DNA from: Salinisphaera sp.
Lineage (GTDB): Bacteria; Pseudomonadota; Gammaproteobacteria; Nevskiales; Salinisphaeraceae
Reading direction: 5' to 3'
NCBI RefSeq assembly: GCF_002729955.1
Contig: NZ_PBYA01000008.1
Location: 62,001-126,000 of the forward strand
DNA length: 64,000 nucleotides
Shown: piece after piece, positions 8,388 through 56,899 of the stretch
Position numbering within the stretch: the stretch's first letter is position 1
How the letters are laid out: the number at the start of each line of letters is the position of its first letter
Translations under genes and position numbers: made by a program
The notes under the pieces: generated by a model
Told to the model about the DNA's origin: nothing
Databases searched by the model: none
What the model saw: the letters and a program-made list of their open reading frames with translations, nothing else

Positions 8388-9434
8388 ATGAGCGCAGAAC
8401 TCACGTTTCAGATCATCGATACCCATGCCGGCGGCGATGTCAGCCGCATCGTGGTGGGCGGTATTACCCAGTTGCCCGGGGCGACGGTACGCCAGCAGAT
8501 GGAGTATCTGCGCGACCATGCCGACGGCCTGCGCACCGTGTTGCTCGAAGAGCCCTACGGTATCCCTGAGATGTCGGTGGACCTGATCGTGCCGCCGGCC
8601 AACCCCGAGGCGCAGGCCGGTTACATCATCATGGAAGTGATGGGCTACCCCATCTACTCGGGCTCCAACACCATCTGTACGGCCACCGCCCTGCTCGACA
8701 ACCACATGATCCCCAAGCGCGAAGGCCGTCAGCAGTTCGTGCTGGAATCGCCCGCCGGACGTGTGGCCATCGAGGCACGGGTGGAGAACGGCGTCGTGGA
8801 GGCGATCACCTGCGAAGGCCTGCCCAGCTATATCGACACCCACCGCGCCACAATTCATGTGCCGCTCATCGGTGAGGTGACCTACAGCATTGCCTATAGC
8901 GGGGGCTTTTATGCGCTGGTCGACGCGGCCGAGCTGGGCTTTTCGCTCACCCGCGACGAGGAGTCGCGCCTGGCCCACTGCGCCCAGGCAATCGTCGAGG
9001 CCATTCTGGAAGAACGCGGCTTTTCTCACTACGAGCTCGGCGACGTGGGGCCACTGCCGTTCCTGCACTTCATGGGCGATGTCGAGCAGACCGGCGCCGG
9101 CCATTACCGCTCGCGCTCGGCCACCTATGTGCACCCCGGCGTGATCTGTCGCAGCACCACCGGCACCGGCACCTCCGCGCGTATGGCGTTGATGCATTAC
9201 GAAGGCCGCATGCAGCCGGGCGATACGCTGGAAACCGTGTCACTGCGCGGCTCGAGCTTTCTGGGCACCTTCACGCGTGTAGCCCAGGCCGGCGGTCACG
9301 ACGTGGTGGAAAACACCATCACCGGCAAGGCCTATGTGATCGCACGTTCGCAGATCGTGGTCAACCCCGAAGACGAACTGGTCGACAGTTCCCAGCTGGG
9401 CGGCATTCTCACCTGCACACAAACTCGGGGCTAA
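8388..9434 (+). CDS. Proline racemase superfamily protein, Ser/Thr variant
   Basis: A 348-residue protein of the proline racemase / hydroxyproline epimerase / trans-3-hydroxyproline dehydratase superfamily: IDTHAGGDVSRIV at the N-terminus, the SGSNTICTATALL block (residues 91-103) and the RSTTGTGTSARMAL block (255-268). Both catalytic cysteine positions are replaced: the first (Cys of MCGHGT in racemases) is Ser91 and the second (Cys of RSPCGTGT) is Thr258. A Cys/Thr pair is known from trans-3-hydroxy-L-proline dehydratases; a Ser/Thr pair leaves no thiol base at either site. Another cysteine, Cys97, is close by. No other hydroxyproline genes surround it, so the reaction is open. Confidence 0.85.
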   Translation: MSAELTFQIIDTHAGGDVSRIVVGGITQLPGATVRQQMEYLRDHADGLRTVLLEEPYGIPEMSVDLIVPPANPEAQAGYIIMEVMGYPIYSGSNTICTATALLDNHMIPKREGRQQFVLESPAGRVAIEARVENGVVEAITCEGLPSYIDTHRATIHVPLIGEVTYSIAYSGGFYALVDAAELGFSLTRDEESRLAHCAQAIVEAILEERGFSHYELGDVGPLPFLHFMGDVEQTGAGHYRSRSATYVHPGVICRSTTGTGTSARMALMHYEGRMQPGDTLETVSLRGSSFLGTFTRVAQAGGHDVVENTITGKAYVIARSQIVVNPEDELVDSSQLGGILTCTQTRG

Positions 9435-9553
9435 GCGGACCGCATCCGTTCGACACGGCGGGCGCAACGGCGCTGGATCTATTCATTCCGCCACTAAACG
9501 CAAAGGACGGGCATGGCGGCTCGGTTTCGCCGCGCACGCGAGAGGCTAATCAG

Positions 9554-9580
9554 ATCTGCGTGCATCTGCGTCGATCTGCG
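9554..9580. repeat. Three tandem ATCTGCG units, period 10
   Basis: ATCTGCG occurs at 9554, 9564 and 9574, giving three near-identical 10-bp units in the 204-base gap between two convergent genes (the racemase-family and deacetylase-family genes). One unit per helical turn would put each copy on the same face of the DNA. No gene or clear terminator is seen in this gap. Confidence 0.5.
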
Positions 9581-9638
9581 GGCGTCTTGTCTTCCCAAAC
9601 ACGCCACATGTACATACGCCCTGCGGCAACGCGGGCCG

Positions 9639-10526
9639 TTAGCCGACCGATCGAGCGAAATGGCGGGCGATCGCCCCCGGCGTGGTCAGCCAGACATCGT
9701 CGCGCACCGCCGCCACATGGGCGAGCGCCCGGCGTAGCGCGCGCAGGCGAAACGGCTGGCCGACGATATACGGGTGCAGCGCGATGCCCATGACCAGGGG
9801 CTGCTCGCGCGCCTGCTCGCGCATTTCGTCGAACTGGTCGACGATGCGGGCGGCGAACTCGCGATAGTCGATATGGTGGGCCACGATCGACGGAATATCG
9901 TTGATCTCCTGCGGGTACGGCACTGATAGAATCCGCCCGCCGTCACGCGTGGCCATCCACGTCGGTTGATCGTCGTGGCACCAGTCCAGATGGTAGCCAA
10001 AGCCGGCCTCGGCGAGCAGGTCCGGGGTGATCTCGCTCTGGGCGATCCATGGGCCGAGCCAGCCGTTCGGTGCCTCGCCGAACGCCGCCGTGAGTCGATC
10101 GCGCGACTCGGCGATGAGCGCGGCCTCGCCGGCCTCGTCGAATTCGTTCTGGGATTCGCTGTTGGTCCGCCCGTGGGCAATGAGCTCGGTATGCAGACGC
10201 TCACGATAAGCCGTCACCAGTTCCGGACAATGGTCGAGGATCGTGCTGTTCACGATCAGGCCCACCGGCAGATCGAGCGCTTCGAACATGTCGAGCATGC
10301 GCCAGGCACCGACGCGGTTGCCATAGTCGCGCCACGCATAGTTGAGCACGTCAGGCTCGCGTCGGCCGCTCGCAAGCGCCGCGCCGTAACCCTGGCCGAA
10401 ATCGAAGTGTTCCAGATTCAGCCCGACATACACTGCCAGTCGCCGGCCGTCGGGCCAGTCGAAGTCCGGCCGATCAACGATGGCGCTGTAGGGATAGCGC
10501 CCGTGGCTTCGAGGGGTTCGTGGCAT
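9639..10526 (-). CDS. Polysaccharide deacetylase family (NodB-like) hydrolase
   Basis: A 295-residue (beta/alpha) barrel hydrolase of the NodB-fold group, closest by motif to PuuE/allantoinase-like members. Visible blocks are RRLAVYVGLNLEHFDFG, WRDYGNRVGAWRMLDMFE, AHGRTNSE (metal-binding His region), WLGPWIAQSEITPDLLAEAGF and MGIALHPYIVGQPFRLRAL. The Asp of the usual DD dyad is not obvious. No signal peptide is present, so it acts in the cytoplasm, as PuuE-type amidases do. It diverges from the secreted DNA ligase gene. The substrate is probably a small amide rather than a polysaccharide, by analogy only. Confidence 0.82.
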   Translation of the reverse strand: MPRTPRSHGRYPYSAIVDRPDFDWPDGRRLAVYVGLNLEHFDFGQGYGAALASGRREPDVLNYAWRDYGNRVGAWRMLDMFEALDLPVGLIVNSTILDHCPELVTAYRERLHTELIAHGRTNSESQNEFDEAGEAALIAESRDRLTAAFGEAPNGWLGPWIAQSEITPDLLAEAGFGYHLDWCHDDQPTWMATRDGGRILSVPYPQEINDIPSIVAHHIDYREFAARIVDQFDEMREQAREQPLVMGIALHPYIVGQPFRLRALRRALAHVAAVRDDVWLTTPGAIARHFARSVG

Positions 10527-10619
10527 GACAGGGCCGCAGACGGAATAGACGGCGCCAGTGTAAGGCCCGGATGCATGCGGCGCCCATCTGCGCTAGCGTC
10601 GGGTACGGGGGTGTGGTGC

Positions 10620-11501
10620 ATGCGATCGAATCATACATTCGCGACCGGGTGGCTCATCCACGTGGTGCTGGTGTTATTCAGCGGCCTTACGGCCGCCGCC
10701 GAACCGCCATCGGTCACGCTGGCCGAACGCTACGACGGCCAGCACGATCTGTCGACCTACTGGGTGAGCGAGAAATACGACGGCGTACGCGGCTACTGGA
10801 CCGGCGACGCACTTCTCACCCGCGGCGGTACGCCTATCGATACGCCGGCCTGGTTCACCGCCGGCTGGCCGGACACGCCCATGGACGGCGAGCTGTGGAT
10901 CGGCTACGGCGAGTTCGCCCGTGTTTCCGGCATCGTACGAACCCACGACGCCCGCGATCGCGAGTGGCGCCGGATCAGCTATCGCGTGTTCGACCTACCC
11001 GAACACGGCGGCGATTTCGACGCCCGGGTGCCGGCCATTCGCGAAACCGTGGCCGCTATCGACCAGCCCTGGGTGGTCGCGATTCGTCAGTTCAAGGTCG
11101 ACGATCCGACCGCGCTCGATGCGGCCCTGGACGCAGTGCTCGCCCGTGGCGGCGAAGGGTTGATACTGCACCGCGGCGCGGCGCCCTATCGCGCCGGGCG
11201 CAGCGACGATCTGCTCAAACTCAAGCCCTACGACGATGCCGAAGCGATCGTGACCGCCATCAACCCCGGCCAGGGCCGCCTCGAAGGCCTGATGGGCTCG
11301 CTCGACGTACGTACGCCCGACGGGCGCGAATTTGCCATCGGCAGCGGCTTTACCGACGCTGAGCGTGCCGATCCCCCACCGGTGGGCAGCTGGATAACCT
11401 ATCGTTACAACGGCGAAACCGCGACCGGCCTACCGCGGTTTGCCCGTTTTCTAAGGCGACGACCGGGCGGACCGCCGCCCGAGCCGGACTCAGGCGGGTA
11501 A
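10620..11501 (+). CDS. ligE: Secreted ATP-dependent DNA ligase, LigE type
   Basis: A 293-residue minimal ATP-dependent ligase with an N-terminal export signal (hydrophobic WLIHVVLVLFSGLTAAA, residues 11-27), a mark of the LigE class. Motif I is SEKYDGVRGYW, with Lys52 as predicted adenylated residue; motif III-like YRVFDLPEH, motif IV GGEGLILH and motif V LLKLKPYDDAEA follow. A short OB-fold ends the protein (GSWITYRYNGETATGLPRFARF). LigE enzymes seal nicks, are thought to act in the periplasm, and have been linked to DNA uptake or biofilm in Proteobacteria. The ATG was chosen because signal peptide and ligase core follow directly. Confidence 0.9.
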   Translation: MRSNHTFATGWLIHVVLVLFSGLTAAAEPPSVTLAERYDGQHDLSTYWVSEKYDGVRGYWTGDALLTRGGTPIDTPAWFTAGWPDTPMDGELWIGYGEFARVSGIVRTHDARDREWRRISYRVFDLPEHGGDFDARVPAIRETVAAIDQPWVVAIRQFKVDDPTALDAALDAVLARGGEGLILHRGAAPYRAGRSDDLLKLKPYDDAEAIVTAINPGQGRLEGLMGSLDVRTPDGREFAIGSGFTDAERADPPPVGSWITYRYNGETATGLPRFARFLRRRPGGPPPEPDSGG

Positions 11502-11547
11502 GACGACACGCGCCGCCTGCCCCGATCCGAGGGCCAGGCCTAGGCGA

Positions 11548-11850
11548 CTAGAGCTTGACCTCGAAGCCTTCGAACTGGGGCGGGCCGAGATAGATATCGC
11601 GGCGCGCGCCGGCGTTTGCGTGGGCCTTGCGAAAGGCCTCGCTCTGGGTCCAGGCCTCGAACGCTGCGCGGGATTCCCACTCGGAGTGCGAGGCAAACAA
11701 CGTGTGCTCCTCGTTGGACGGCCCCTGCAACAGATTGAACTGCTTGAAGCCGGGCACCTCCTGCAGATGGGTGTCGCGTTCGCGCCAGATGGCGAGAAAC
11801 TCCTCTTCGCAGCCGGGTTTGATCTTGAAACGGTTCATGGCAATGAACAT
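11548..11850 (-). CDS. Antibiotic biosynthesis monooxygenase (ABM/IsdG-like) domain protein
   Basis: A 100-residue single-domain protein with the dimeric alpha-beta barrel pattern: FIAMNRFKIKPGCEEEFLAIWRERDTHLQEVPGF, then FNLLQGPSNEEHTLFASHSEWESRAAFEAWTQSEAFRKAH. This matches the HmoA/IsdG heme-oxygenase-like branch, where the Asn of MNRF and the His of SEAFRKAH are typical heme-pocket positions. The start ATG has a GGGAG site; a longer upstream frame is unlikely. It may degrade heme or act as a quinol monooxygenase; heme is favoured by motif. It diverges from the AEC transporter. Confidence 0.82.
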   Translation of the reverse strand: MFIAMNRFKIKPGCEEEFLAIWRERDTHLQEVPGFKQFNLLQGPSNEEHTLFASHSEWESRAAFEAWTQSEAFRKAHANAGARRDIYLGPPQFEGFEVKL

Positions 11851-11987
11851 GGCCTGCTCCCATCCGTGAAAAACCGTTGTGAGTATACGCATCGCCCGGC
11901 GCCCCATGGCCAGGACGATCAATGCGCAGTACAGCTACAATGGCGCGTTTTGTGACCGGGCCGGCCTTGGCCCCGACAGGAGCCTTC

Positions 11988-12860
11988 GTGCTGATTCGTA
12001 TTCTCGAGATCACGGTGCCGGTATTCGGCATCATCGCCCTGGCCTACGCCTACGGGCGCCGACGCCCGACTGATCTGCGCGATGCGAACCGGCTCAACAT
12101 CAGCATCTTCACGCCCGCGCTGATTTTTCATGCGCTCACCGAGCGCTCCCAGGGCGGGGACGATTTCATTATGGCCGCCGTCGGCGCCACGGTGATCGTG
12201 CTCGGTTCCGGCCTGCTCGCCTGGTCCTGGGTACGGTTCACCAAACGCGACCCGGCCGTCTACGTCGGCCCGGCCATGTTCAACAACTGTGGCAATCTGG
12301 GCCTGCCGCTGGCGATTCTCGCCTTCGGCGAAGACGCCCTGCCGCTGGCCGTGGTGCTGCTGGTCACCGAAAACCTGCTGCAATTCACCGTCGGGCTGTG
12401 GCTGCTGGGCGATTCGATTCATATCAAACGCCTGGCCACCAATCCGGTCCTGGTGGCCACCTTCGCCGGCGTGATCGGCATGGTCATGGACTGGCATGCC
12501 CCGGCCATGATCGAGCCCGGCATACGCATGCTAGGCGAAATCTCCATTCCGCTCATGCTGGTCGCACTCGGCGTACGCCTGGCCGACGGTGCGCCGGGCC
12601 AATGGTCCGCCGGCTTCTGGGGCGGACTGGCCTGCCCGCTCACCGGCCTGATCGTGGCCGTGCCCTGGGTTTTGATCACCCAACCCGATCCGCCGCTGGC
12701 CGCACTGCTGATCGTGTTCGGCGCCCTGCCGCCGGCCGTACTCAACTACATGCTCGCCGAACAGTTCGAGATCGCCCCGCAGCAGGTCGCCGCGATCGTG
12801 GCCGTCGGACATGTAATCGCGCTCGCGGTCATACCGCTCGCGCTTTATTGCGTTCTATAG
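11988..12860 (+). CDS. AEC (auxin efflux carrier) family transporter
   Basis: A 290-residue protein with about ten membrane helices and the AEC pattern: ITVPVFGIIALAYAYGRR, LNISIFTPALIFHAL, FNNCGNLGLPLAILAFGEDALPLAVV and GEISIPLMLVALGVRL, ending with an ALPPAVLNYMLAEQF block. The GTG start is preceded by AGGAG at the right distance, better than the upstream in-frame ATG. Bacterial AEC members carry carboxylates such as malate or malonate, or amino acids. No metabolic partner lies beside it, so the substrate is open. Confidence 0.88.
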   Translation: MLIRILEITVPVFGIIALAYAYGRRRPTDLRDANRLNISIFTPALIFHALTERSQGGDDFIMAAVGATVIVLGSGLLAWSWVRFTKRDPAVYVGPAMFNNCGNLGLPLAILAFGEDALPLAVVLLVTENLLQFTVGLWLLGDSIHIKRLATNPVLVATFAGVIGMVMDWHAPAMIEPGIRMLGEISIPLMLVALGVRLADGAPGQWSAGFWGGLACPLTGLIVAVPWVLITQPDPPLAALLIVFGALPPAVLNYMLAEQFEIAPQQVAAIVAVGHVIALAVIPLALYCVL

Positions 12861-12910
12861 CGCCTGCATCGAGATCGCTTGCCCAGCTACGTCCCATGCG
12901 AGAAAAGACG

Positions 12911-13210
12911 TCAGCGAAGCCGCGAGGGTAATTTGCTCGGATTCGCCTTGCCATGCGTACGAGCGAGTATCGTAATTCGGCTTTCTGGTATCTGATACCA
13001 AACCAGAAACGGAAATCGGCGCAGCACTGCTCGCCGTATGCCGCGGTATTTTTGCGGGTAAAGAAACGGCTCTTCGGCGATCCGCGCCACCAGGGCGTTG
13101 AATTCAGCGTTGAACTCGGCTGCCAAACCGACCTGTTGCTGTTCGTACCACTACTGAGCTTCCACCACATCACGTTCTGCGGTGCGACGAAAATAGACGT
13201 TGTAGATCAA
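12911..13210 (-). pseudogene. ParE/RelE-family toxin interrupted by an amber codon
   Basis: Reading from a TTG at 13210, which overlaps the antitoxin stop (TTGA), the frame gives LIYNVYFRRTAERDVVEAQ, a TAG codon at 13151-13153, then WYEQQQVGLAAEFNAEFNAL and on to RRFPFLVWYQIPE, ITILARTHG and a normal stop. Both halves lie in one frame and fit a single toxin of about 98 residues; the amber falls at a variable position just before the conserved WYE. Without suppression, only the last 71 residues could be made, from an internal TTG at 13126, lacking the first helix. Likely an inactivated toxin, unless this is a sequencing error or a suppressed codon. Confidence 0.85.
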
Positions 13211-13428
13211 GGCAGCTGGCTTTTGATTCGCTCGCGAACGTCGGACCACGGGCTTTCGTCAGCCGGATTCGCTTCAGCATCCGCGATACGCGCGTCCAGT
13301 AACGATTGCTCGGCGGCTGTCACCGGCACCTCTTCCGTGCCAATCGTTTCCCAGACCGCCTGGATGAACTCCAATCGCTCAGCAAGTGAGAGTTCCTTGA
13401 CCTTCGATATTAAGTTCGCATCGATCAT
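13207..13428 (-). CDS. Addiction-module antitoxin (TIGR02574-like)
   Basis: A 73-residue acidic protein: LISKVKELSLAERLEFIQAVWETIG, then an Asp/Glu-rich middle and ESPWSDVRERIKSQLP. This is the pattern of the short 'putative addiction module component' antitoxins paired with ParE/RelE toxins. It lies directly upstream of the toxin, with its stop overlapping the toxin TTG start, as expected for coupled antitoxin-toxin expression. The antitoxin frame is intact while the toxin is interrupted. Confidence 0.85.
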   Translation of the reverse strand: MIDANLISKVKELSLAERLEFIQAVWETIGTEEVPVTAAEQSLLDARIADAEANPADESPWSDVRERIKSQLP

Positions 13429-13626
13429 GGCTAGAGAATAGCGTAATCACCGCATACGCAATACGCCCGGTCACCAAGCACACAACTCAAGCAGACAACT
13501 ATCGAGTTCAAACCGGCGCGGCACAATAACAAGCCGTCTCAGCCCACCTGGGTACGCCATGGGGGAACGCGCGCAGCGACCACTTACCTTCAACTGGACA
13601 ACGCCCCAGATGTTCGGCGGTTCGCA

Positions 13627-13661
13627 CAAAAAAGCCGGCCGATCATAAGACCGGCCGGCTT
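13627..13661 (-). terminator. Rho-independent terminator after the Old Yellow Enzyme gene
   Basis: On the minus strand, AAGCCGGCCG pairs with CGGCCGGCTT across a 10-base loop and is followed by a T-run. It sits 27 bases after the stop of the flavin oxidoreductase gene. The rest of 13429-13626 shows no gene. Confidence 0.85.
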
Positions 13662-13687
13662 GGCGCAACGCAGGATGCGCTATCCGA

Positions 13688-14797
13688 TCAACTCTGTTCG
13701 CTCAGGAAGGGATAGTCGGTATAGCCCTTTTCGTCGCCGCCGTAGTAGGTGGCTTCGTCGGGCTTGTTGAGTTCGGCACCGACACGGAAGCGCTCCACAA
13801 GATCCGGGTTGGCGATATAGGGACGACCGAAGGCCGCACCGTCGCCGAGATCCTTTTCGATCAGGTCTTCGGTCTTCTCCGCCGTGTAGTGGCCGCAGAA
13901 AATAAGCTTGCCGTTGGCAAAGCGCTCCCGCAGGGACTGACGGAACTCGTCGGTGAGCTTGATATTGCCGCCGGCCCAGTCGGGTTCCGCGATATGCAGA
14001 TAGGCCAGACCACGCTTGTTGAGCTGTTCGGCCATGTAGAAGGCCATGGCCTTGGGTTCGTCGTCGCTCAGGCCGAAGATCTCGATGAACGGCGACATGC
14101 GAATGCCCACGCGATCGGCGCCCATCACTTCAACCACGGCATCGACGACTTCCAGCGGCAGACGCGCGCGGTTCTCGATCGAGCCGCCATAGGCGTCGGT
14201 CCGCTTGTTGGAACCGGTGGCCATGAACTGCTGGAGCAGATAGGCGTTGGCGGCATGGACTTCCACCATGTCGAAGCCGGCCCGCTTGGCGCGGATGGCG
14301 GCCTGACGATATTCCTCGACCACCTCGGGGATTTCCTTGGTTTCCAGCGCACGCGGCGTGGAGGAATCCTGCAGGCCTTCGCTGCCATCCTCGAACTGGA
14401 CATAGGACTGGGCGCCTTCGCCGCGAATGGCACTGGGCGCGACCGGCTTGCGGCCGTCCGGGTGCACCATTTCATGGCCGACCCGGCCGACGTGCCACAG
14501 CTGCAGGCACATGCGACCGCCGGCGTCATGCACGGCGTCCACCACGCCTTTCCAGCCGGCTTCCTGCTCGTCGGTGAAAATGCTCGGGGTGAACACATAA
14601 CCGCGGGCGGATTCCGAGATGTTGGTAGCCTCGGAGATGATCATGCCGGCGCCGGCACGCTGCGAGTAATAGGTACGCTGCATTTCGCCCGGCACCTGAT
14701 CGCGACAGCGCGCACGTGTGAGCGGCGCCATGATGACGCGGTTGGGCAGCTGTACGGCGCCAAAATCGATGGGGGAAAGAAGCTTGTCGACGGCCAT
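13688..14797 (-). CDS. Old Yellow Enzyme family NADH:flavin oxidoreductase (NemA-like)
   Basis: A 369-residue FMN barrel enzyme. Features are LLSPIDFGAVQLPNRVIMAPLTRARC at the N-terminus, CLQLWHVGRVGH, MVEVHAANAYLLQQFM with the His/Asn pair that binds the phenolic or nitro substrate, and YGGSIENRARLPLEVV. NemA-type enzymes reduce activated alkenes, nitroesters, N-ethylmaleimide and quinones with NAD(P)H. The ATG at 14797 has an AAGGA site; an in-frame extension upstream of 38 codons reads like non-coding sequence. It ends in its own strong terminator, and lies downstream of azurin, which also has its own terminator. Confidence 0.92.
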   Translation of the reverse strand: MAVDKLLSPIDFGAVQLPNRVIMAPLTRARCRDQVPGEMQRTYYSQRAGAGMIISEATNISESARGYVFTPSIFTDEQEAGWKGVVDAVHDAGGRMCLQLWHVGRVGHEMVHPDGRKPVAPSAIRGEGAQSYVQFEDGSEGLQDSSTPRALETKEIPEVVEEYRQAAIRAKRAGFDMVEVHAANAYLLQQFMATGSNKRTDAYGGSIENRARLPLEVVDAVVEVMGADRVGIRMSPFIEIFGLSDDEPKAMAFYMAEQLNKRGLAYLHIAEPDWAGGNIKLTDEFRQSLRERFANGKLIFCGHYTAEKTEDLIEKDLGDGAAFGRPYIANPDLVERFRVGAELNKPDEATYYGGDEKGYTDYPFLSEQS

Positions 14798-14908
14798 TTT
14801 GGTTCCTTGGACGAAAGATCGTGTGATGCCCAAGGAGTTGGTGGCCGCGACGGGCAAATCAAGTCGATTGCGCACAACGCATTCTTGCGCCAGACACAAA
14901 ACCGGGCA

Positions 14909-14941
14909 CAAAAAAGGCCCTGCCGCAGTGCGACAGGGCCT
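14909..14941 (-). terminator. Rho-independent terminator after azurin
   Basis: On the minus strand AGGCCCTGTCG and its partner TGCCGCAGGGCCT-like arm form a GC-rich hairpin followed directly by a T-run. It sits 18 bases past the azurin stop codon, so azurin is probably a single-gene transcript. Confidence 0.85.
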
Positions 14942-14959
14942 GAACTCGCCTGGCTGCGC

Positions 14960-15412
14960 TTATTCGGCCTTGACCGTCAACGTGCCCTTCATGCCGGCCT
15001 GGAAATGGCCCGGGAAGGTGCAGATATAGGTGTAGTCGCCCGGCTCTTCCGGTGCGGTGAAGGTCACCGAATCGGATTCGCCGCCGCCAACCAGCCCGGT
15101 ATGGGCGACGATCTGGTCGCTCAATTCTTCCGGCACGTAGTCGTTGGCCTTGGCGCTCATCGCGGCTTCGTCGATCTTGGCCGCATCGGCATCCGCCTTG
15201 AGCAGAATCCAGTTATGCGCCATGGCCGCGGCCGGCAACTTGCTGTTGTTGACCAGCTTCACCGTGACTTCTTCGCCCGGCTTGACCGTGATCGATTCCT
15301 GGCTAAAGCGCAGGCTGTTGGTGCCCTCGATTTCGACCGTCTTCGCCTGGGCGGCGACCGCCAGCGTGGACAGCGCAGCAAACAGCGCGAACAGAATTGT
15401 CTTCTTCAACAT
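14960..15412 (-). CDS. azu: Azurin, periplasmic blue copper protein
   Basis: A 150-residue precursor with a signal peptide (MLKKTILFALFAALSTLAVAAQA, cleavage after residue 23). The mature cupredoxin carries the full type-1 copper site: His66 (AHNWIL), Cys131 and His136 (ICTFPGH) and Met141 (GMKG). It would carry electrons in the periplasm, for example to a peroxidase or nitrite reductase. Unlike classic azurins, the two cysteines that form the N-terminal disulfide are missing: Cys131 is the only cysteine in the mature chain. The upstream in-frame extension was rejected because the signal peptide starts at this ATG. Confidence 0.93.
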   Translation of the reverse strand: MLKKTILFALFAALSTLAVAAQAKTVEIEGTNSLRFSQESITVKPGEEVTVKLVNNSKLPAAAMAHNWILLKADADAAKIDEAAMSAKANDYVPEELSDQIVAHTGLVGGGESDSVTFTAPEEPGDYTYICTFPGHFQAGMKGTLTVKAE

Positions 15413-15586
15413 GTGAATTATCTCCGTCGATTTTGTATATGCACAATGAAAGCAATACGAGCGATACGCAAGCTGTGGCAAAGACGATGTGCCCGGGCCA
15501 CGGGCCAGACGCTCGCGAACCCGATCGCTGAAAAGTCTAGCCGGCACGGCTGAACCCCGGCTGACGCATCGAACATGGGCGACGGC

Positions 15587-29799: not shown

Positions 29800-30546
29800 A
29801 TGGACAGGGACAAAGCCACCACCGCCACGGGCGATCAAGCGCGATCAAAGCGGCGCAAGGCGCGCCGCCGCGCGCCCACGCGAGGCCAGCGCCTGGTTCG
29901 GATGGTGTCGCAGCGGGGGATGGCCAGCTATATCTGGTTGCTGCGCCTGAGCTGTCGTATCGAAATCGTGGCCGGCGGCGAGCACCTGGAAAGCGCGCTT
30001 GCCTCGGGCCAACCGGTGGTGCCGTGCGCCTGGCATCAGCGCCTGGTGCCCAGCGGCCTGTTTCTGCGCTCGCTGGTGGATCAAGGCATGAATGTCGGCT
30101 TCTTGATCAGCCCGTCGCGAGAAGGCGATTTCATGTCTCGGGTTGCCCACAACCATCGCGTCATCCCGATTCGCGGTTCCTCCAGCCGCACCGGCCGAGA
30201 GGCCATGCAGGCGTTGACCGCTGCCGTGGCCGAGGGCATCTCCCCCATGATGTACGGCGACGGCCCGCGCGGCCCGGCCCGTGTTTTCAAGACGGGGGCG
30301 GTCATCCTGGCCAGTCAGAGCGGCGCCCCGCTGTTGCTCGTGGGTGCGGCGAGCAGCCGCTTCTGGCAGGTAAAATCGTGGGATCGCTTCCAGGTGCCCA
30401 TGCCGTTCTGCCGGTTTAGAATTGCGCTGGGCGAACCTTGGCCGATCGGCCCGTTGCACGACAGGCGCGAGGCCGAAACCATCGCAGAAGAACTGGGCCG
30501 GCGTCTCGACGCGCTATGCGACGTCGCCCGGCATGCATCCCCCTAG
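29800..30546 (+). CDS. DUF374 lysophospholipid acyltransferase-like protein, copy 1
   Basis: A 248-residue acyltransferase of the DUF374 branch. After a very basic N-terminus ([15 protein letters not shown]) come [83 protein letters not shown] and a basic SFWQ-like stretch. DUF374 members resemble 1-acyl-glycerol-3-phosphate acyltransferases and often act on lipids at the inner membrane; only one short hydrophobic segment is visible here. It is followed by a paralogue 12 bases later. The acyl donor and acceptor are unknown. Confidence 0.82.
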
Positions 30547-30558
30547 GATCCGTTGTTT

Positions 30559-31320
30559 ATGAGTCAGGACAGTAAGCGCCCGCCGAGCGCATTCAGCCGG
30601 CTGGGCCTGGGTATCGGCGTATCGGTGCTCAAACCGACCGCCCGTGCCCTGCTCGCCAGCTGGCGTATCCAGCAGGTGAGCGGCGAAGCGTACCTTTGGC
30701 AAGCCATCGACAGCGGCCGGGCCCTGATGCCCTGCTGCTGGCATCAGCGGTTGAGCGCGAGCGTGGGGTATCTGCTCAAGGCCCAGTCCCGCGGTTTGAA
30801 ACCCGGGTTTCTGGTTTCGCCCTCCCGCGACGGCGAGATTACCGCCCGCGTGGTCGAAGGCATGGGGGCGCATATCATTCGCGGGTCCGCCACGCGCACC
30901 GGCGCCCGCGCCATGCGCGATCTCTACGGCGTGATGAAAACCGGCGTGGCGCCGATCATCCATCCGGACGGCCCGCACGGGCCGGGCTTCGTGGCCAAGC
31001 CGGGCACCCTGATGCTTGCCCAGATGACGCAGGCCACCCTGCTGCCGCTTTCATTCTCGGCCGACCGTTACTGGCAGCTCGATTCCTGGGACCGGGTGAT
31101 CATCCCCAAGCCCTTCGCCCGGGTGACGATCACCATCGGCGAACCGGTCACCGTCGCCCGCGGCGAAAGCGTCGAGGCCGCCGCCGAATCCCTGGGCTCG
31201 CAGCTGGACGCGCTCACACGCGAGGCGGATCGTCTGGCCGGAACGACGCCGCGGCCGCCGAAGAAGCTCGGCAAGCCGCGCGCTCCCAGCGCCGGTGCCG
31301 AAACCAGCGGCGACGATTAG
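30559..31320 (+). CDS. DUF374 lysophospholipid acyltransferase-like protein, copy 2
   Basis: A 253-residue paralogue of the preceding gene with the same pattern: LMPCCWHQRLSASVGYL, FLVSPSRDGEITARVVEGMGAHIIRGSATRTGARAM, APIIHPDGPHGPGFVAKPGTLMLAQMTQATLLPLSFS and YWQLDSWDRVIIPKPFARVTITIGEP. The tail (PPKKLGKPRAPSAGAETSGDD) is low complexity. The spacing suggests translational coupling to copy 1. Its stop overlaps the stop of the convergent acyl-AMP ligase gene by two bases. Possibly the two work as a heteromer or on different substrates. Confidence 0.82.
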   Translation: MSQDSKRPPSAFSRLGLGIGVSVLKPTARALLASWRIQQVSGEAYLWQAIDSGRALMPCCWHQRLSASVGYLLKAQSRGLKPGFLVSPSRDGEITARVVEGMGAHIIRGSATRTGARAMRDLYGVMKTGVAPIIHPDGPHGPGFVAKPGTLMLAQMTQATLLPLSFSADRYWQLDSWDRVIIPKPFARVTITIGEPVTVARGESVEAAAESLGSQLDALTREADRLAGTTPRPPKKLGKPRAPSAGAETSGDD

Positions 31321-33272
31321 GCCGTGGCGGTCTCGGCCTGCAGGTAGGCTGCCAGCGCGTTGATGGTCGAATAATCGAACAGGTCGGTCATTTCCACCCG
31401 GTTCGGCCAGCGCGTTTCGATGCCTTCATGGATCTGGGCGAGTTCCAGCGAGGACAGGCCGATCTCGAACAGATCGTCGTCGACGCCGATATCCCGGCCG
31501 GGCACGACCTCATCGCAGATCGCCTTGAGTTCGGCGGCGAGGTCGGTGTTCTCGGCCGCTTCGGACTCGGACTCCCGAGGGCCGAGCAAGGCATCGAGCC
31601 GGGCGGCGATCTCGTCGAATTCGCCTTCGGCATACTGGCGTGCCAGCAGCGAACGCTGCAGCTTGCCGCTGGTGGTCTTGGGCATGCGTGCAATCGGCAG
31701 CACCTGCGATGCCACAAGCCCCGCGCGCTGGTTGAGCGCACCGCGCAGTTCCCGGGCGATGCCGGCGAAATCTTCAAGATGACCGCGAAACACCACGAAC
31801 AGCACCAGCGCCTGCTCGGTGGTGCTCGGCGCCTGTACGCCCGCCGCGGCGAGCTTGTTGAGCTCTGCGCCGGGCAGATCCTGTAGCAGCGCTTCGATAT
31901 CCTGCGGGTAATGGTTCTGGCCGTTGACGAAGATGATTTCCTTCGCGCGACCGGTGATCACGAGTTCGCCGTCGTGGCGAAAGCCCAGATCGCCGGTGTC
32001 CAGCCAGCCCTCGCCCACCAGCGCGTCGGCGTTCGCCCGCGGATTGTCGTGATAGCCGCCGGTGACGTTGGCGCCGCGAATGAGCACCCGGCCGACCACG
32101 CCGTCGGCAACGGCCTGGCCCTGGGCATCGACCAGCGCAAGTTCGGTCGACTTGACCGGCGTGCCCAGGCACACCAGTTCCAGCGCATGCGCGCCCTCGT
32201 CGAAGCGCACCGTATCGCCTACGCCCAGTTCGCCGCGGGCCACGGAGATACTGCGCAGCCCGCGCCCGGGGTTCGGGAATGTAGCCGCCAGGCTGGCCTC
32301 GGCCAGGCCGTAGACGGCGAACATGGTCGTCGCATTCAGGCCGGTGGGCGCCAGCGTGTCGAGAAATTCGCGTACCAGCGCCGGGGCGATGGGCTCGGCG
32401 CCGTTGTAGATCAGGCGCACGCTGGATAGATCCAGTTCGGGCCGGCCCTTGGCCGAAATCGCACGCAGCGTGTGCCGATACCCGAAGTTGGGCGAGCACA
32501 GCAGCGTGGCGCGCGTTTCGGCGGCTTTTTCGAGCCATAGCAACGGCCGGCGCGCGAACAGATCCGGCGTCATCAGATAATGGGCAAAGCCGTTGTGGAC
32601 CAGGGTCAGATGGAAACCGATCAGGCCCATATCGTGGGTGAGCGGCATCCACGACAAAGCCACCTCATCAGCGCCGAACTGCGAACCGCTGCTGATCGCT
32701 TCGATATTGGCGAGCACGTTGGCATGGGTGAGCACGACGCCTTTCGGATCACCCGTGGAGCCGGACGAAAACTGGATGAACGCCGTATGTTCAGGCGTCA
32801 GCCTGGCGCGCTCGGCCGCATGGTCCACGGCCGGCGGCTCGTCGGACAGCGCACGCTCGCCCAGACGCTCGCTGGCGGCCTGCTCGCCGCGCTGTTCGAG
32901 CAGTTCGCGCAGGCGCTCGATATGTTTGGGCGCGGCCACCACGCGCGGCTCGTCGAGATGGCGCCAGACCCGCAGCAGCTTGTCCATCTGGGCAGCGGTC
33001 GCACCCGCCGCGATCGGCACCGGCACGATGCCGCCATAGATCGCACCCCAGAAGAACTGCAGAAAACGCAGGTTGTCTTCGACGAACAGAATCAGCGGTT
33101 CGCCGGTCGTCATGCCCTGCTGCTGCAGCACGGCCAGTCGGTCTTCGGCCGACTTGGCCAGCATGCGATAGTTGAGACCCCGTTCCTCGTCGGCACCGTC
33201 GATGAAGACGATGCCGTGCGGCGAGTCTTTATGCGCATCCAGCGCGTCGGCAAGCGTATTGAAAGCAGGCAT
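31317..33272 (-). CDS. Fatty acyl-AMP ligase fused to a C-terminal acyl carrier protein
   Basis: A 651-residue two-domain protein. Residues about 1-560 are an adenylating domain of the FAAL/acyl-CoA synthetase type: FIQFSSGSTGDPKGVVLTHAN (A3), SWMPLTHDMGLIGFHL, YGLAEASLAATF (A5) and WLDTGDLGFRHDGELVITGRAKEIIFVNGQNHYPQDIE (A7-A8). Residues about 565-651 form a phosphopantetheine-binding carrier domain, with Ser608 in FEIGLSSLELAQIHEGIE. It should activate a carboxylic acid, probably a fatty acid, as acyl-AMP and load its own carrier arm. It is coupled to the upstream P450 gene, and a PPTase gene diverges. The exact acid is unknown. Confidence 0.85.
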   Translation of the reverse strand: MPAFNTLADALDAHKDSPHGIVFIDGADEERGLNYRMLAKSAEDRLAVLQQQGMTTGEPLILFVEDNLRFLQFFWGAIYGGIVPVPIAAGATAAQMDKLLRVWRHLDEPRVVAAPKHIERLRELLEQRGEQAASERLGERALSDEPPAVDHAAERARLTPEHTAFIQFSSGSTGDPKGVVLTHANVLANIEAISSGSQFGADEVALSWMPLTHDMGLIGFHLTLVHNGFAHYLMTPDLFARRPLLWLEKAAETRATLLCSPNFGYRHTLRAISAKGRPELDLSSVRLIYNGAEPIAPALVREFLDTLAPTGLNATTMFAVYGLAEASLAATFPNPGRGLRSISVARGELGVGDTVRFDEGAHALELVCLGTPVKSTELALVDAQGQAVADGVVGRVLIRGANVTGGYHDNPRANADALVGEGWLDTGDLGFRHDGELVITGRAKEIIFVNGQNHYPQDIEALLQDLPGAELNKLAAAGVQAPSTTEQALVLFVVFRGHLEDFAGIARELRGALNQRAGLVASQVLPIARMPKTTSGKLQRSLLARQYAEGEFDEIAARLDALLGPRESESEAAENTDLAAELKAICDEVVPGRDIGVDDDLFEIGLSSLELAQIHEGIETRWPNRVEMTDLFDYSTINALAAYLQAETATA

Positions 33273-33281
33273 GAGAAACCT

Positions 33282-34610
33282 CTAGGACAAGTTCTGTCGA
33301 GCGCGCCAGCGAATCGGCACGCCGTCGCCGGGCCGCAGATTGATCCGCGATTCCAGCATCGGTGGATGTTCACCGGCATACACCGGCGTGAAAAGACGCA
33401 GCATCGTTACCAGATGCTGGCGCATTTCGGTCATGGCCATATGTTCGCCCACGCAGTGACGCGGACCGGCGGCGAACGGCATATAGGCAAAGCGTTGCGA
33501 AGGCACACCCTGTTTTAGAAAACGCGCCGGCGAAAAGCAATCCGGCATGGCCCAGTAGGCCGGATCGCGGTGCAAAACATAGGGGCTGATCAGCAGCTGA
33601 TCGCCTGCGGCGATTTCGTAATCGCCGAATGTATCGGCTTCGAGGGCGCGGCGGGACAACAGCCAGCCCGGCGGATACAGCCGTAGCGTCTCATGGATTA
33701 TCGCATCGATGAAACGCAGCCGGTCGCTGGCGTGATCGACCAGGGCCGGAATTTCGCGCTCGTCGATCGCGTCCACCTCTGCCTGAGCCCGTGCACAGAC
33801 CTCGGGGTGGCACGCGATTTCGTACCAGGCCCAGGCGAGCGCGCTGGCGGTGGTTTCATGGCCGGCCACGATCAGGGTCATGACCTCGTCGACCAGCGTG
33901 CGCCGACTCATGGCCTCGCCATCGCGGTCGCGGGCGGCCAGCAAATGCCCGAGAAAATCGAAGGACTGCTCGTCGCTATCCTGTCGGCTGTCGATAATCG
34001 ACTCCACGACCCCACCCAGCCGATGAAAGCGTGCAGCGAAACGCAGATCCCGGGTCGCCTCCTCGCTGAGCAGGGAAAACGGGTTGCTCTCGCCCTCGAC
34101 CAGCCGCGCGTAGTCGGCGCCGAAGATGGACTTGAGCACGATCACCAGCGTCAGCTCGCTGATATGCGCAGCCACGTCGACCCACATCTCGTCGCCTGCC
34201 GCTTGGCGCCAGCGCTCGGCCAGAGCGAGGTTTTCGTGCGCGATCATGGTGTTGAAGTCCGCCAACCGGCGCGGCTTGAACGCGGGCTGGATGAGGCGGC
34301 GCTGGCGCGCCCAGAACTCACCCTCGCTCACCATGATGCCTTCGCCCAGCAACAGACGAACGCGATCCAGGCCCAGGCCCTTGGCATAGCGCGCCGAGCG
34401 CCGAACCATGATCTGCTGGACGAAGGCCGGGTCATGCACGACCCAGCGACGCGCACCGCCCTGCGGCGCGGGGACGCGATACACCGGACCATATACATGG
34501 TGCCAACGCACGAGCATGCGCCGCGTTGCATCATCGGGTGCGACATCGAATGGCGCGGACGGGCCGACTTTGTCGGCGGCGGAGACAATATCGGATAGGC
34601 TGCTGGACAT
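33282..34610 (-). CDS. Cytochrome P450
   Basis: A 442-residue P450. The I-helix oxygen motif is AGHETTASALAW, the K-helix ExxR is HETLRLYPPGWLLSRRA and the heme loop is FAAGPRHCVGEHMA with thiolate ligand Cys386. No membrane anchor is apparent and no reductase domain is fused, so it needs a separate ferredoxin or flavodoxin partner, none of which is adjacent. The stop codon is nine bases from the acyl-AMP ligase start, with the AGAGG ribosome site for the ligase overlapping the P450 stop, so the pair is one operon. An acyl-ACP substrate is suggested by context. Confidence 0.9.
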   Translation of the reverse strand: MSSSLSDIVSAADKVGPSAPFDVAPDDATRRMLVRWHHVYGPVYRVPAPQGGARRWVVHDPAFVQQIMVRRSARYAKGLGLDRVRLLLGEGIMVSEGEFWARQRRLIQPAFKPRRLADFNTMIAHENLALAERWRQAAGDEMWVDVAAHISELTLVIVLKSIFGADYARLVEGESNPFSLLSEEATRDLRFAARFHRLGGVVESIIDSRQDSDEQSFDFLGHLLAARDRDGEAMSRRTLVDEVMTLIVAGHETTASALAWAWYEIACHPEVCARAQAEVDAIDEREIPALVDHASDRLRFIDAIIHETLRLYPPGWLLSRRALEADTFGDYEIAAGDQLLISPYVLHRDPAYWAMPDCFSPARFLKQGVPSQRFAYMPFAAGPRHCVGEHMAMTEMRQHLVTMLRLFTPVYAGEHPPMLESRINLRPGDGVPIRWRARQNLS

Positions 34611-34690
34611 CTGGGAACGACCCGATCGATACGCGGCCCCTGGCTCCTGGGCAAACGGCTGCGCGGCTTGGAATCAAATCGATTATTTTT

Positions 34691-35356
34691 ATGTTACGTG
34701 TATTTTACACCTTCCTGGGTGTACACGATCAAGTGCTGCTCGCCCGACAGCAGGCGTTCGACCCGCCGGCGTATCGCGAACGCATCGATCGCATGAAGGA
34801 TGACGGGGCCCGAAGCCGGACCCGGGCCGGGCTCTGGTTGCTGAAAAAATTGCTGGCCGCTGCCGACTATGCCGACGATACGCTTGAGCGCATCGGCTTC
34901 AGCGCCAGCGGTCAGCCGCAGATTCATGACGCGCCTGCATTCAGCATTTCGCACAGCGAGCAGCTGGTCGCCTGCGCGCTATGCGACGAAGCAAGCATTG
35001 GCCTGGATGTGGAACACCGACGCCTGCGCGACATGGCGCGCATGGCACGCCTGCTCGACCCGGCCGAACGCGCCCACGTTGAGCGTCAACCGCTCGCATT
35101 CTTCGACTACTGGTGCGCCCGCGAGGCCACGGTCAAGGCCAGTGGCCGGGTCGGGCTCAAGCGCATCCGGGCCCTGAGCCTGGCCGGCGACACCGCCAGG
35201 CTCGACGAACGGGACTGGCACCTGCGCGCGCTCGATCTCGATGCCGGCTATGCGGCCTGTCTGGCCAGCGATCGCCCGATCGGGCCGGTCGATCTACGTG
35301 AGCTCAGTCTTCCCGGCCGAGAAAATACAGGCCCGCATAGATCTTCGGATCAATGA
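34691..35356 (+). CDS. 4'-phosphopantetheinyl transferase, Sfp type
   Basis: A 221-residue enzyme that moves phosphopantetheine from CoA to carrier-protein serines. Signature residues are FSISHSEQLVACALCDEASIGLDVEH (the GxDxE metal motif) and FFDYWCAREATVKASG (the WxxREAxxKA motif). It diverges from the P450/acyl-AMP ligase operon over 80 AT-rich bases, which suggests that it activates the fused carrier domain, though it may also serve other ACPs. The last 53 bases overlap the convergent Nudix gene. The start ATG has no strong ribosome site. Confidence 0.9.
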   Translation: MLRVFYTFLGVHDQVLLARQQAFDPPAYRERIDRMKDDGARSRTRAGLWLLKKLLAAADYADDTLERIGFSASGQPQIHDAPAFSISHSEQLVACALCDEASIGLDVEHRRLRDMARMARLLDPAERAHVERQPLAFFDYWCAREATVKASGRVGLKRIRALSLAGDTARLDERDWHLRALDLDAGYAACLASDRPIGPVDLRELSLPGRENTGPHRSSDQ

Positions 35357-54677: not shown

Positions 54678-54982
54678 ACGGCATTCCCATGGAACACGGC
54701 CTGATACTGGCCGCCCTGCTGTTCACCCTCGGGCTGGTCGGGCTGATGGTACGGCGTAATACGCTGTTCGTCCTCATGTGCCTGGAAATCATGCTCAATT
54801 CGGCCGGTCTGGCCTTCATCGTGGCCGGTGCGGCCCATGGCGCGCCCGACGGGCAGGTGATGTTCATCCTCGTGATCACCCTGGCCGCTGCCGAAGCGAG
54901 CATTGGCCTGGGTCTGCTGCTGCAGCTGCATCGCCGCTTCAAGACCATCGACATCGACGCCGCCAGCGAGATGCACGGATGA
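54674..54982 (+). CDS. nuoK: NADH-quinone oxidoreductase subunit K
   Basis: A 102-residue membrane subunit with three helices. The conserved acidic residues are in [24 protein letters not shown] and [20 protein letters not shown], which form part of the proton channel. It starts inside the nuoJ stop (ATGA) and its own stop overlaps the nuoL ATG. Confidence 0.96.
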
Positions 54983-56829
54983 ATTTGCTAGCCCTGACCA
55001 TCGTCTTTCCGCTCGCCGGCAGCCTCGCGCTGTCGTTCTTCCCGCGCATGGCCGACCGTGCCGCGGCGACCATCGGCGCCGGCTCGGTTGGGCTGTCCGC
55101 GCTGGTATCGGCGTGGCTGATCTATACCTTCGTCACCGGCGACGGTGCGGCGTATACGCAAACCCTCTGGACCTGGGTGTCGGTGGGTGATTTCACCCCG
55201 GCGTTCGCGCTGTATTTCGACGGCCTGGCGGCGACCATGCTCGGCGTAATCACCGGCGTGGGGTTTCTCATCCACATGTTCGCCAGCTGGTACATGAAGC
55301 ACGACCTCGACGGCGGGCCGGGCATGGGGCGTTTCTTCGCCTACATGAACCTGTTCATCGTCGCCATGCTGCTGCTCGTGCTGGGCGACAACCTGTTCCT
55401 GCTGTTTCTCGGCTGGGAAGGCGTGGGCCTGTGCAGCTATTTGCTGATCGGCTACTACTACCGTGACGAAGCCAACGCCTGGGCCGCCTTCAAGGCGTTT
55501 CTGATCACCCGTATCGGCGATGTGTTCCTGGCCATCGGCCTGTTCCTGATGTTCGCCACCTTCGGCACCCTGGATATTCAGACCCTGCTGGAACAGGCGC
55601 CCCAGGCCTGGGCCGAGGGCGACCCGATGGCCAGCGTTGCGGCGCTGCTGCTGCTGGGCGGCGCGGTGGGCAAATCCGCCCAGCTGCCGCTGCAGACCTG
55701 GCTGCCTGACGCCATGGCCGGCCCCACGCCCGTCTCGGCGCTGATCCACGCGGCCACCATGGTTACGGCGGGCGTCTACTTGATCGCGCGCATGCATGTC
55801 GTGTTCGAGCTCGCCCCGGCCGTGCTGGCCCTGGTGGGCGTCGTCGGCGCGGTCACGCTGCTGCTGGCAGGCTTCGCTGCCCTGTGCCAGACCGATATCA
55901 AGCGCGTGCTGGCCTATTCCACCATGAGCCAGATCGGCTATATGTTCCTTGCGCTGGGCGTGGGTGCCTGGGACGCGGCAATCTTTCACCTGATGATCCA
56001 TGCCTTCTTCAAGGCCCTGCTGTTCCTGGCCTCGGGCTCGGTGATCATCGCCTGCCATCACGAACAGAACATCTTAAAGATGGGCGGGCTGCGCAAGAGC
56101 CTGCCGCTGGATTACGCGGTATTCATCATCGGCGGCGCGGCGCTGGCCGCCCTGCCCCTGGTCACGGCCGGCTTCTATTCCAAGGACGAGATCCTGTGGC
56201 TGTCGTTTGCCAACGGCCACCATGTGCTGTGGTTCGCCGGCCTCGTCGGCGCATTCCTGACCGCGCTCTATACCTTCCGCATGATCTTCATCGCCTTCCA
56301 CGGCGAAGCGCAGATCAAGGCCCATGCCGGCCGTGGCATCGCCCATCACCTGCCGCTGATCGTGCTGGCGGTGCTTTCCACCTTCCTGGGCGCCTGGATT
56401 CATCCGCCGCTGGCCGACGTACTGCCGGTTCACGAAGGCGGCGATCACGGCACCACGAAGCTGGTCGTGGAAGTGCTTTCCGCGGCCGTCGCCATCGTCG
56501 GCCTCGGCCTGGCTGCGGCGTTGTTCCTGGGCCGTCGACAGATGGCCGACAAGCTCGCCTCGGGCCCGCTCGGGCGCGGTCTTTGGCAGCTGTGGCACAA
56601 CGCCTGGGGCTTCGACACGCTTTACGATCGCGTGTTCGTGCGCCCCTATCTGCTGCTGACCCGCCTGCATCGTCGCGACTGGATCAACTCGACCGTCAAC
56701 GTCGCACCGCAGCTTGCGCTCATGCTCAACAGCGCGCTGGTCACCACCCAGAGCGGGCGACTGCGCTGGTATGCCCTGTCGCTGTTCGCCGGTGCCGCGC
56801 TTCTGCTGATCGCGCTGCTGTTCGGGTGA
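54979..56829 (+). CDS. nuoL: NADH-quinone oxidoreductase subunit L
   Basis: A 616-residue antiporter-like subunit, the distal proton pump with the long lateral helix. Evidence: [46 protein letters not shown] (conserved Glu), [41 protein letters not shown] (conserved Lys/His), [20 protein letters not shown] and [13 protein letters not shown]. The ATG overlaps the nuoK stop. A 70-base gap follows before nuoM. Confidence 0.97.
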
Positions 56830-56899
56830 TGCGCATGAATACACACGATAACGGCGTGGCGACTGCGCGCTCATTCACAGGTCCCAAGGAACGTTTTCA

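Follow-up and report, generated by a model that had tools for sequence, protein, structure and literature searches.

What would a bacterium make with a fatty acyl-AMP ligase (FAAL) that carries its own acyl carrier domain, a cytochrome P450, a phosphopantetheinyl transferase (PPTase) and two acyltransferases of the Pfam family DUF374, all encoded side by side? This question is raised by positions 29800 to 35356 of a stretch of 64,000 nucleotides of Salinisphaera sp. DNA (assembly GCF_002729955.1, contig NZ_PBYA01000008.1, positions 62,001 to 126,000), which we call the window. It belongs to a genome of 3.84 Mb that, among named organisms, is most closely related to Salinisphaera species. An earlier note, made from the sequence alone, had read this cluster as a candidate uncharacterised pathway in which a free acid is activated, tethered, oxidized and moved to a lipid or a small acceptor. 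We propose, with a probability of about 0.5, that the genes encode a dedicated acyl-ACP (acyl carrier protein) branch and that the oxidized chain is attached to lipid A as a secondary acyl group.

The acceptor is suggested by the DUF374 proteins. Members of this family were renamed LpxJ in a 2018 study, which described them as lipid A late acyltransferases that add a secondary acyl chain in bacteria without LpxM and replace that enzyme; they were reported from Rickettsia and Epsilonproteobacteria and as enzymes without the HX4D/E motif (PMC6148475). The family therefore has a published function, and the acceptor, which the earlier note had left open-ended, narrows to lipid A as the likely one. 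Both window proteins exceed the curated Pfam cut-off for PF04028 (26.8 bits): DUF374-1 (29800..30546, forward strand, from an inner ATG at 29800 of a frame open from 29716) scores 54.1 bits and DUF374-2 (30559..31320, forward strand, from an ATG in a frame open from a TTG at 30553) scores 64.5 bits. Activity of the R. typhi enzyme needs W60, H61, D86, D132, W172 and D173 (PMC6148475). We mapped these residues by motif and alignment, with the R. typhi sequence itself not included. DUF374-2 keeps all six (W63, H64, D93, D139, W179 and D180), and DUF374-1 keeps five (W106, H107, D182, W222 and D223), with E136 at the D86 site, a residue common to the three other members of its subclade. Across 44 aligned DUF374 proteins, the W60, H61, D132 and W172 sites are conserved in all 44 and the D173 site in 43, and the D86 site is occupied by D in 39 and by E in 4. 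The HX4D/E motif is absent from both window proteins, whose translations read HQRLVP and HQRLSA. By sequence, the two proteins are members of the LpxJ family, whose enzymes act late in the acylation of lipid A.

The same grouping of genes was found well beyond the window. We studied the best 80 of at least 577 related stretches, a set that includes related metagenome genomes and whose counts are not independent; it also overlaps with the genome set described below (by coordinates, L029 is G050 and L010 is G008), and the two sets are not independent of each other. Genes were located by direct tblastn, and recurrent neighbour families were taken after a codon-position filter. At 60 loci the available sequence reached 3.3 kb or more upstream of the ligase; the other 20 were dropped because they were too short on that side. 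Within set distances from the ligase (2.6 kb for the P450, 10.5 kb for DUF374 and 4.5 kb for the PPTase), a P450 was detected at 52 of the 60 loci, DUF374 at 52, both at 48, a PPTase at 25 and all three at 22. Tighter distances changed these numbers little (51, 51, 46, 25 and 21). When the Salinisphaera-like loci L009-L017 were removed, 53 loci remained, with a P450 at 45, DUF374 at 45, a PPTase at 18 and an LpxL-like gene at 22. The earlier note had proposed that its reading should fall if the neighbours were not conserved together in relatives; with P450 and DUF374 both near the ligase at 48 of 60 loci, they are. The association of ligase, P450 and DUF374 is not a chance one, because many other genomes have this set as well.

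The five-part set seen in the window nevertheless reduces to a core of three. We rejected the PPTase as a core part, since it is present at only 25 of the 60 loci (at least 27 when L078 and L082, found by other settings, are counted). Of the loci that have both P450 and DUF374, 26 lack a PPTase match, and at 22 of these the two genes lie less than 300 nt apart, which leaves no room for a PPTase between them. The second DUF374 was rejected likewise: it occurs at 5 of the 80 loci, all of them Salinisphaera-like. Another acyltransferase gene recurs at these loci. An LpxL-like gene was identified at 27 of the 80 (22 of the 72 with more than 1 kb downstream), and one representative matched Pfam Lip_A_acyltrans (100.7 bits); its matches to lipid A acyltransferase models of NCBIfam stayed below cut-off. 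Altogether, DUF374 or the LpxL-like gene lies nearby at 56 of the 60 loci. ArnT-like and ArnC-like genes were found at 7 and 6 of the 80 loci, with NCBIfam aminoarabinose-pathway matches below cut-off; examples are L031 4619-6340, L025 5789-6550 and L132 11583-14447, and these glycosyltransferase genes beside the cluster are perhaps another lipid A decoration. In one genome, G077, ligase and P450 stand together with LpxL-like, ArnC-like and ArnT-like genes, with no DUF374 or PPTase match adjacent.

The distribution of lipid A acyltransferases across genomes is consistent with this assignment. The window genome (G000) contains two DUF374 genes, both in the cluster, a single Lip_A_acyltrans gene, and LpxK. 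We searched 151 sampled gammaproteobacterial genomes (E-value thresholds of 1e-120 for the ligase, 1e-8 for DUF374 and 1e-15 for Lip_A_acyltrans) and detected the ligase in 4 and DUF374 in 16; all four ligase genomes possess DUF374 (Fisher p 8.7e-5, or 8.3e-4 without the window's own genome; the counts are not phylogenetically independent). In G077, the DUF374 gene lies on another contig than the ligase. The gene set is kept in four families of this sample, with membrane acyltransferases as partners. At most one Lip_A_acyltrans gene was found in 14 of the 16 genomes with DUF374 vs 59 of the 135 without it, again not phylogenetically independent counts; when the listed genomes are restricted to those of 2.3 Mb or more with at least 90% completeness, the figures are 13 of 15 and 17 of 76. 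The two exceptions with DUF374 are G077, with three Lip_A_acyltrans genes, and G175, with two. Of 61 relatives, 11 have a single Lip_A_acyltrans gene, and all 11, six of them in this genus, carry DUF374 above cut-off. None of the 27 DUF374-less relatives has exactly one Lip_A_acyltrans gene, but among the 34 that carry DUF374, 23 have at least two. The small number of LpxL/LpxM-type enzymes where DUF374 is present fits with DUF374 standing in for LpxM.

The donor side of the cluster begins with the ligase (31317..33272, reverse strand; AMP-binding, 181.9 bits), whose frame continues without interruption into the carrier domain (PP-binding, 37.7 bits); Ser608 of this carrier is invariant in 41 aligned ligases. 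The best NCBIfam match of the ligase is PRK09192 (NF006624, fatty acyl-AMP ligase), at 369.6 bits, which does not reach the cut-off of 600. The solved structures closest to it in a sequence search are the adenylation proteins 6ulw/6ulx and 4r0m (269-284 bits), followed by 3kxw, which we take to be a FAAL, by the fatty acyl-adenylate ligase 3pbk and by FadD32 entries, whereas 4-coumarate-CoA ligase reaches only 91 bits. Judged by these similarities, the ligase is closer to FAALs than to acyl-CoA ligases, and the fusion of the carrier to it suggests channelling to one product.

The P450 (33282..34610, reverse strand; Pfam p450, 239.4 bits) contains the haem ligand Cys386, the E307xxR310 motif and the I-helix motif AGHETT, and C386, E307/R310 and E252/T253 are invariant in 44 aligned sequences. 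Its structure model (pLDDT 85.7) most resembles CYP184A1 with oleic acid, closely followed by CYP97 and CYP3A and then by BM3, a ranking that is compatible with a fatty substrate and no proof of one. The PPTase (34691..35356, forward strand) matches Pfam PF01648 (ACPS) at 35.1 bits against a cut-off of 25, and its translation contains GLDVE and WCAREATVK, which we read as PPTase motifs. Its likely start is the ATG at 34691, 80 nt from the start of the divergent P450; the frame open from 34526 overstates the length of the gene.

Pfam scans and coordinates thus agree with the earlier note on the parts and their places, from the tandem DUF374 pair through Ser608 and Cys386 to the divergent PPTase, and also on the convergence of the DUF374 pair with the ligase, the frames of DUF374-2 and the ligase overlapping by 4 nt. 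Its claim that the ligase is translationally coupled to the P450 needs softening. The two genes are adjacent, with the P450 upstream, and coupling is plausible and nothing firmer, because the P450 stop (33282-33284) and the ligase start (33270-33272) are 9 nt apart and the frames do not overlap. A promoter scan returned 0 sigma-70-like sites, vs 1.1 expected in shuffles.

Taken together, these genes would support the following sequence of events. The PPTase would prime Ser608 of the ligase's own carrier. The ligase would then activate a free fatty acid as acyl-AMP and load it onto this carrier, apart from acyl-CoA and from housekeeping acyl-ACP. The P450 would oxidize the carrier-tethered chain, most simply by hydroxylation, and the LpxJ-like DUF374s would attach the oxidized chain to lipid A, at a hydroxyl on one of its primary acyl chains, the reaction that LpxJ performs where it replaces LpxM. 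The order of activation, tethering, oxidation and transfer advanced by the earlier note fits the parts, and its individual steps are predictions. What the data show are the parts, their intact catalytic residues, the conservation of the block, the assignment of DUF374 to the LpxJ family and the small number of LpxL/LpxM-type enzymes in genomes with DUF374. We infer every substrate, the order of the third and fourth steps and lipid A as the acceptor. A broader version, to which we give somewhat less than even odds, is that a P450-dependent lipid A pathway with a self-loading ligase-carrier and a dedicated LpxJ subfamily extends across many gammaproteobacterial lineages, and that the two Salinisphaera copies are split between two positions or chains.

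Several observations weigh against this proposal. The P450 is not near the ligase at 8 of the 60 loci, which suggests that oxidation is not always needed. Neither DUF374 nor an LpxL-like gene was found at L024, L029, L053 and L069; L029 and L069 are considered below, and L024 and L053 count against lipid A as the acceptor. A low number of Lip_A_acyltrans genes is also not peculiar to DUF374 genomes, as the 59 of 135 genomes without DUF374 make clear, and G077 possesses the ligase together with three such genes. For seven non-cluster DUF374 genes, we scanned one to three neighbours each. Lipid A genes (LpxK and a Kdo-transferase) were present in L122 only, and in the other six settings no lipid A gene was found among the neighbours scanned; with one setting in seven, we did not retain these neighbours as support for lipid A.

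The fold and the phylogeny of the DUF374 proteins belong with these observations. The model of DUF374-2 (pLDDT 90.6) yielded Foldseek matches at E < 0.001 to LpxM, PatA and PlsC entries only, with LpxM first. A second structural aligner gave a tie (Z 13.1 for PatA, 13.0 for PlsC and 12.9 for LpxM), so we did not rely on the Foldseek ranking as a judge of the acceptor: the modelled fold supports the acyltransferase superfamily and, because the three tie, does not name the acceptor. In a tree of 56 DUF374 proteins, whose deepest joins are weak and where long branches meet, all 46 cluster members fall into one group (SH-aLRT 99). This group also takes in a single non-cluster protein, the long-branched one of G145, and the nine others lie outside it. 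The cluster DUF374s, being separate from nine of ten non-cluster proteins, thus appear by phylogeny to be a specialised branch of the LpxJ family, and having a clade of their own may also mean that their acceptor has changed. The G145 gene has a setting of its own (L124 3716-5061), where DUF374 adjoins a PPTase near a RoxA-like cytochrome c protein, in a genome with no ligase at E 1e-120; the pair is either a remnant or is served by a different donor.

These data bear on a first alternative, in which loading and oxidation proceed in the same way and the DUF374s pass the chain to a different acceptor in the membrane, for instance a lysophospholipid, a glycolipid or an amino-acid lipid. The equal match to PatA and PlsC, the separate clade and the conserved D to E change that marks DUF374-1 all speak for it, but the LpxJ residues are kept, LpxL-like, ArnC-like and ArnT-like neighbours recur and the window genome has a single LpxL-type enzyme. 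We consider this alternative unlikely.

It is also conceivable, at long odds, that the cluster makes the acyl starter of a small secondary metabolite such as a lipopeptide, a signal or a surfactant. A FAAL with a carrier, a P450 and a PPTase recalls natural-product clusters, and a frame of 3565 aa with adenylation-domain similarity, by inference a non-ribosomal peptide synthetase (NRPS), is present elsewhere in the genome. Against this, no NRPS or polyketide synthase was found among the recurrent neighbour families scanned with Pfam, an HlyD-type export protein occurs at only 7 of the 80 loci, the Salinisphaera flanks are housekeeping genes (NAPRTase, ThiC), and the set is kept in the four families mentioned above with membrane acyltransferases as partners.

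A third alternative, which we regard as improbable, is that the oxidized acyl-ACP is a sphingolipid donor, supplying the long-chain base or the N-acyl chain. It has a published parallel in the dedicated trio AasR-AcpR-SPT, in which free fatty acid reaches sphingolipids by way of a specialised carrier and AasR-AcpR feeds serine palmitoyltransferase (SPT; PMC9386255). This system resembles ours in combining a specialised ligase with a carrier and in directing free fatty acid into one membrane lipid; in addition, PRK09192, the best NCBIfam match of the window ligase, is also the family of the SPT-linked FAAL of L029 described below. It differs from the window cluster, where the carrier is fused to the ligase, a P450 is present, the acyltransferase is LpxJ-like and not SPT, the genome has no SPT match and the PRK09192 cut-off is missed.

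The neighbourhood evidence for a ceramide link is local. In Panacagrimonas (L029 and L069), a second FAAL and SPT come after the ligase and P450, the span in L029 being 8676-15572; SPT of L029 scores 575.9 bits against a cut-off of 500, and the second FAAL is of the PRK09192 family. The same gene order is seen in G035 (L135) and matching positions in G043, making four Panacagrimonas-type genomes in all, and no DUF374 was found in the scanned flanks of L029, L069 and G035. These loci count against lipid A as a general acceptor. In G035, a weak LpxL-like match (25%) lies about 15 kb away. In the eight genomes of the window's genus that have SPT (G001-G005, G007, G009 and G013), a second Lip_A_acyltrans gene is found no further than about 3 kb from it; this proximity suggests an LpxL-like enzyme in sphingolipid or linked lipid synthesis, and the second Lip_A_acyltrans may belong to the SPT cluster. 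SPT adjoins the ligase at only 2 of the 80 loci, however, and it occurs in 8 of the 14 genomes of the genus, whereas the ligase is present in all 14. No SPT match was obtained in the window genome (NF047599, E 1e-90), and we rejected a sphingolipid as the main product there, retaining it as an alternative on account of the Panacagrimonas-type loci. The ceramide link is therefore either a neighbourhood peculiar to one lineage or an indication that the oxidized acyl-carrier can serve more than one membrane lipid. Least probable of all is salvage or repair, in which exogenous free fatty acids return to the membrane and the P450 is detoxifying or optional: the 8 loci without a P450 would agree with it, but the P450 is kept at 52 of 60 and the ligase-fused carrier suggests channelling to one product.

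The proposed lipid A branch can be compared with three further systems. In rhizobia, AcpXL and LpxXL, a dedicated carrier and acyltransferase, put an oxidized very-long-chain fatty acid on lipid A; dedicated synthases build this chain and an LpxL-type acyltransferase transfers it, whereas here a free acid would be activated, a P450 is present and the transferase is of the LpxJ type. The P450 BioI acts on acyl-ACP in biotin synthesis, much as the window P450 is proposed to act on a carrier-bound chain, but the fold of the latter is closest to the enzymes listed above, and the neighbours of the cluster that we scanned included no biotin genes. Relative to LpxJ of Rickettsia and Epsilonproteobacteria (PMC6148475), the cluster DUF374s share the Pfam family, the catalytic residues, the lack of HX4D/E and the scarcity of LpxM-type enzymes; they differ in being tied to their own acyl-ACP source and a P450, in occurring here as two tandem copies and in forming a clade separate from nine of the ten other gammaproteobacterial DUF374s tested. 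The earlier note knew of no described cluster with exactly these parts. Our literature search, by title and abstract opening and with most subscription journals outside it, likewise found no published description of a set of ligase-carrier, P450, DUF374 and PPTase. The words P450 and PPTase are absent from the main text of a FAAL review (PMC11837247). In principle the cluster would work like AasR-AcpR and the rhizobial AcpXL-LpxXL branch, from which it is set apart by the fusion of the carrier to the ligase, by the P450 and by a transferase of the LpxJ type.

The surroundings of the cluster in Salinisphaera are ordinary housekeeping genes. NAPRTase and ThiC are encoded on one flank; the other holds a 7TM-transglutaminase-like protein, with an NCBIfam RloB match below cut-off, and a gene that by eye is presumably PurD. 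In non-Salinisphaera loci, nadC and a PAS-GGDEF-EAL gene are found upstream of the cluster (e.g., L031 868-4413), and NAPRTase, the Salinisphaera neighbour, belongs like nadC to NAD metabolism. The PAS-GGDEF-EAL family was present at 38 and the nadC family at 31 of the 80 loci (Pfam was run on one representative each); we did not retain them as functional partners, as they look like background synteny. The S. shabanensis ligase is 86% identical to that of the window. Two loci with the Salinisphaera gene order, L010 (Endozoicomonas sp. G2_2) and L015 (Lysobacterales bacterium SP48), encode ligases that share 68% and 64% identity with that of the window, so their organism names are probably wrong. 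Elsewhere in the window, positions 54778-58429, in the stretch where AT skew is strongly negative, encode two members of the proton-antiporter family, complex I chain 5 and a related protein, which are ordinary genes, and positions 9966-11501 encode an ATP-dependent DNA ligase that includes an OB domain.

Secondary acyl chains determine how permeable the outer membrane is and how immune receptors recognise lipid A, and the lipid A hydroxylation known to us uses other enzyme types. If our proposal is true, the module of ligase-carrier, P450 and LpxJ would add a way to oxidize or select lipid A chains from free fatty acids. A whole DUF374 subfamily would thereby gain a partner, and the outer membrane of these bacteria would be customised by an undescribed route.

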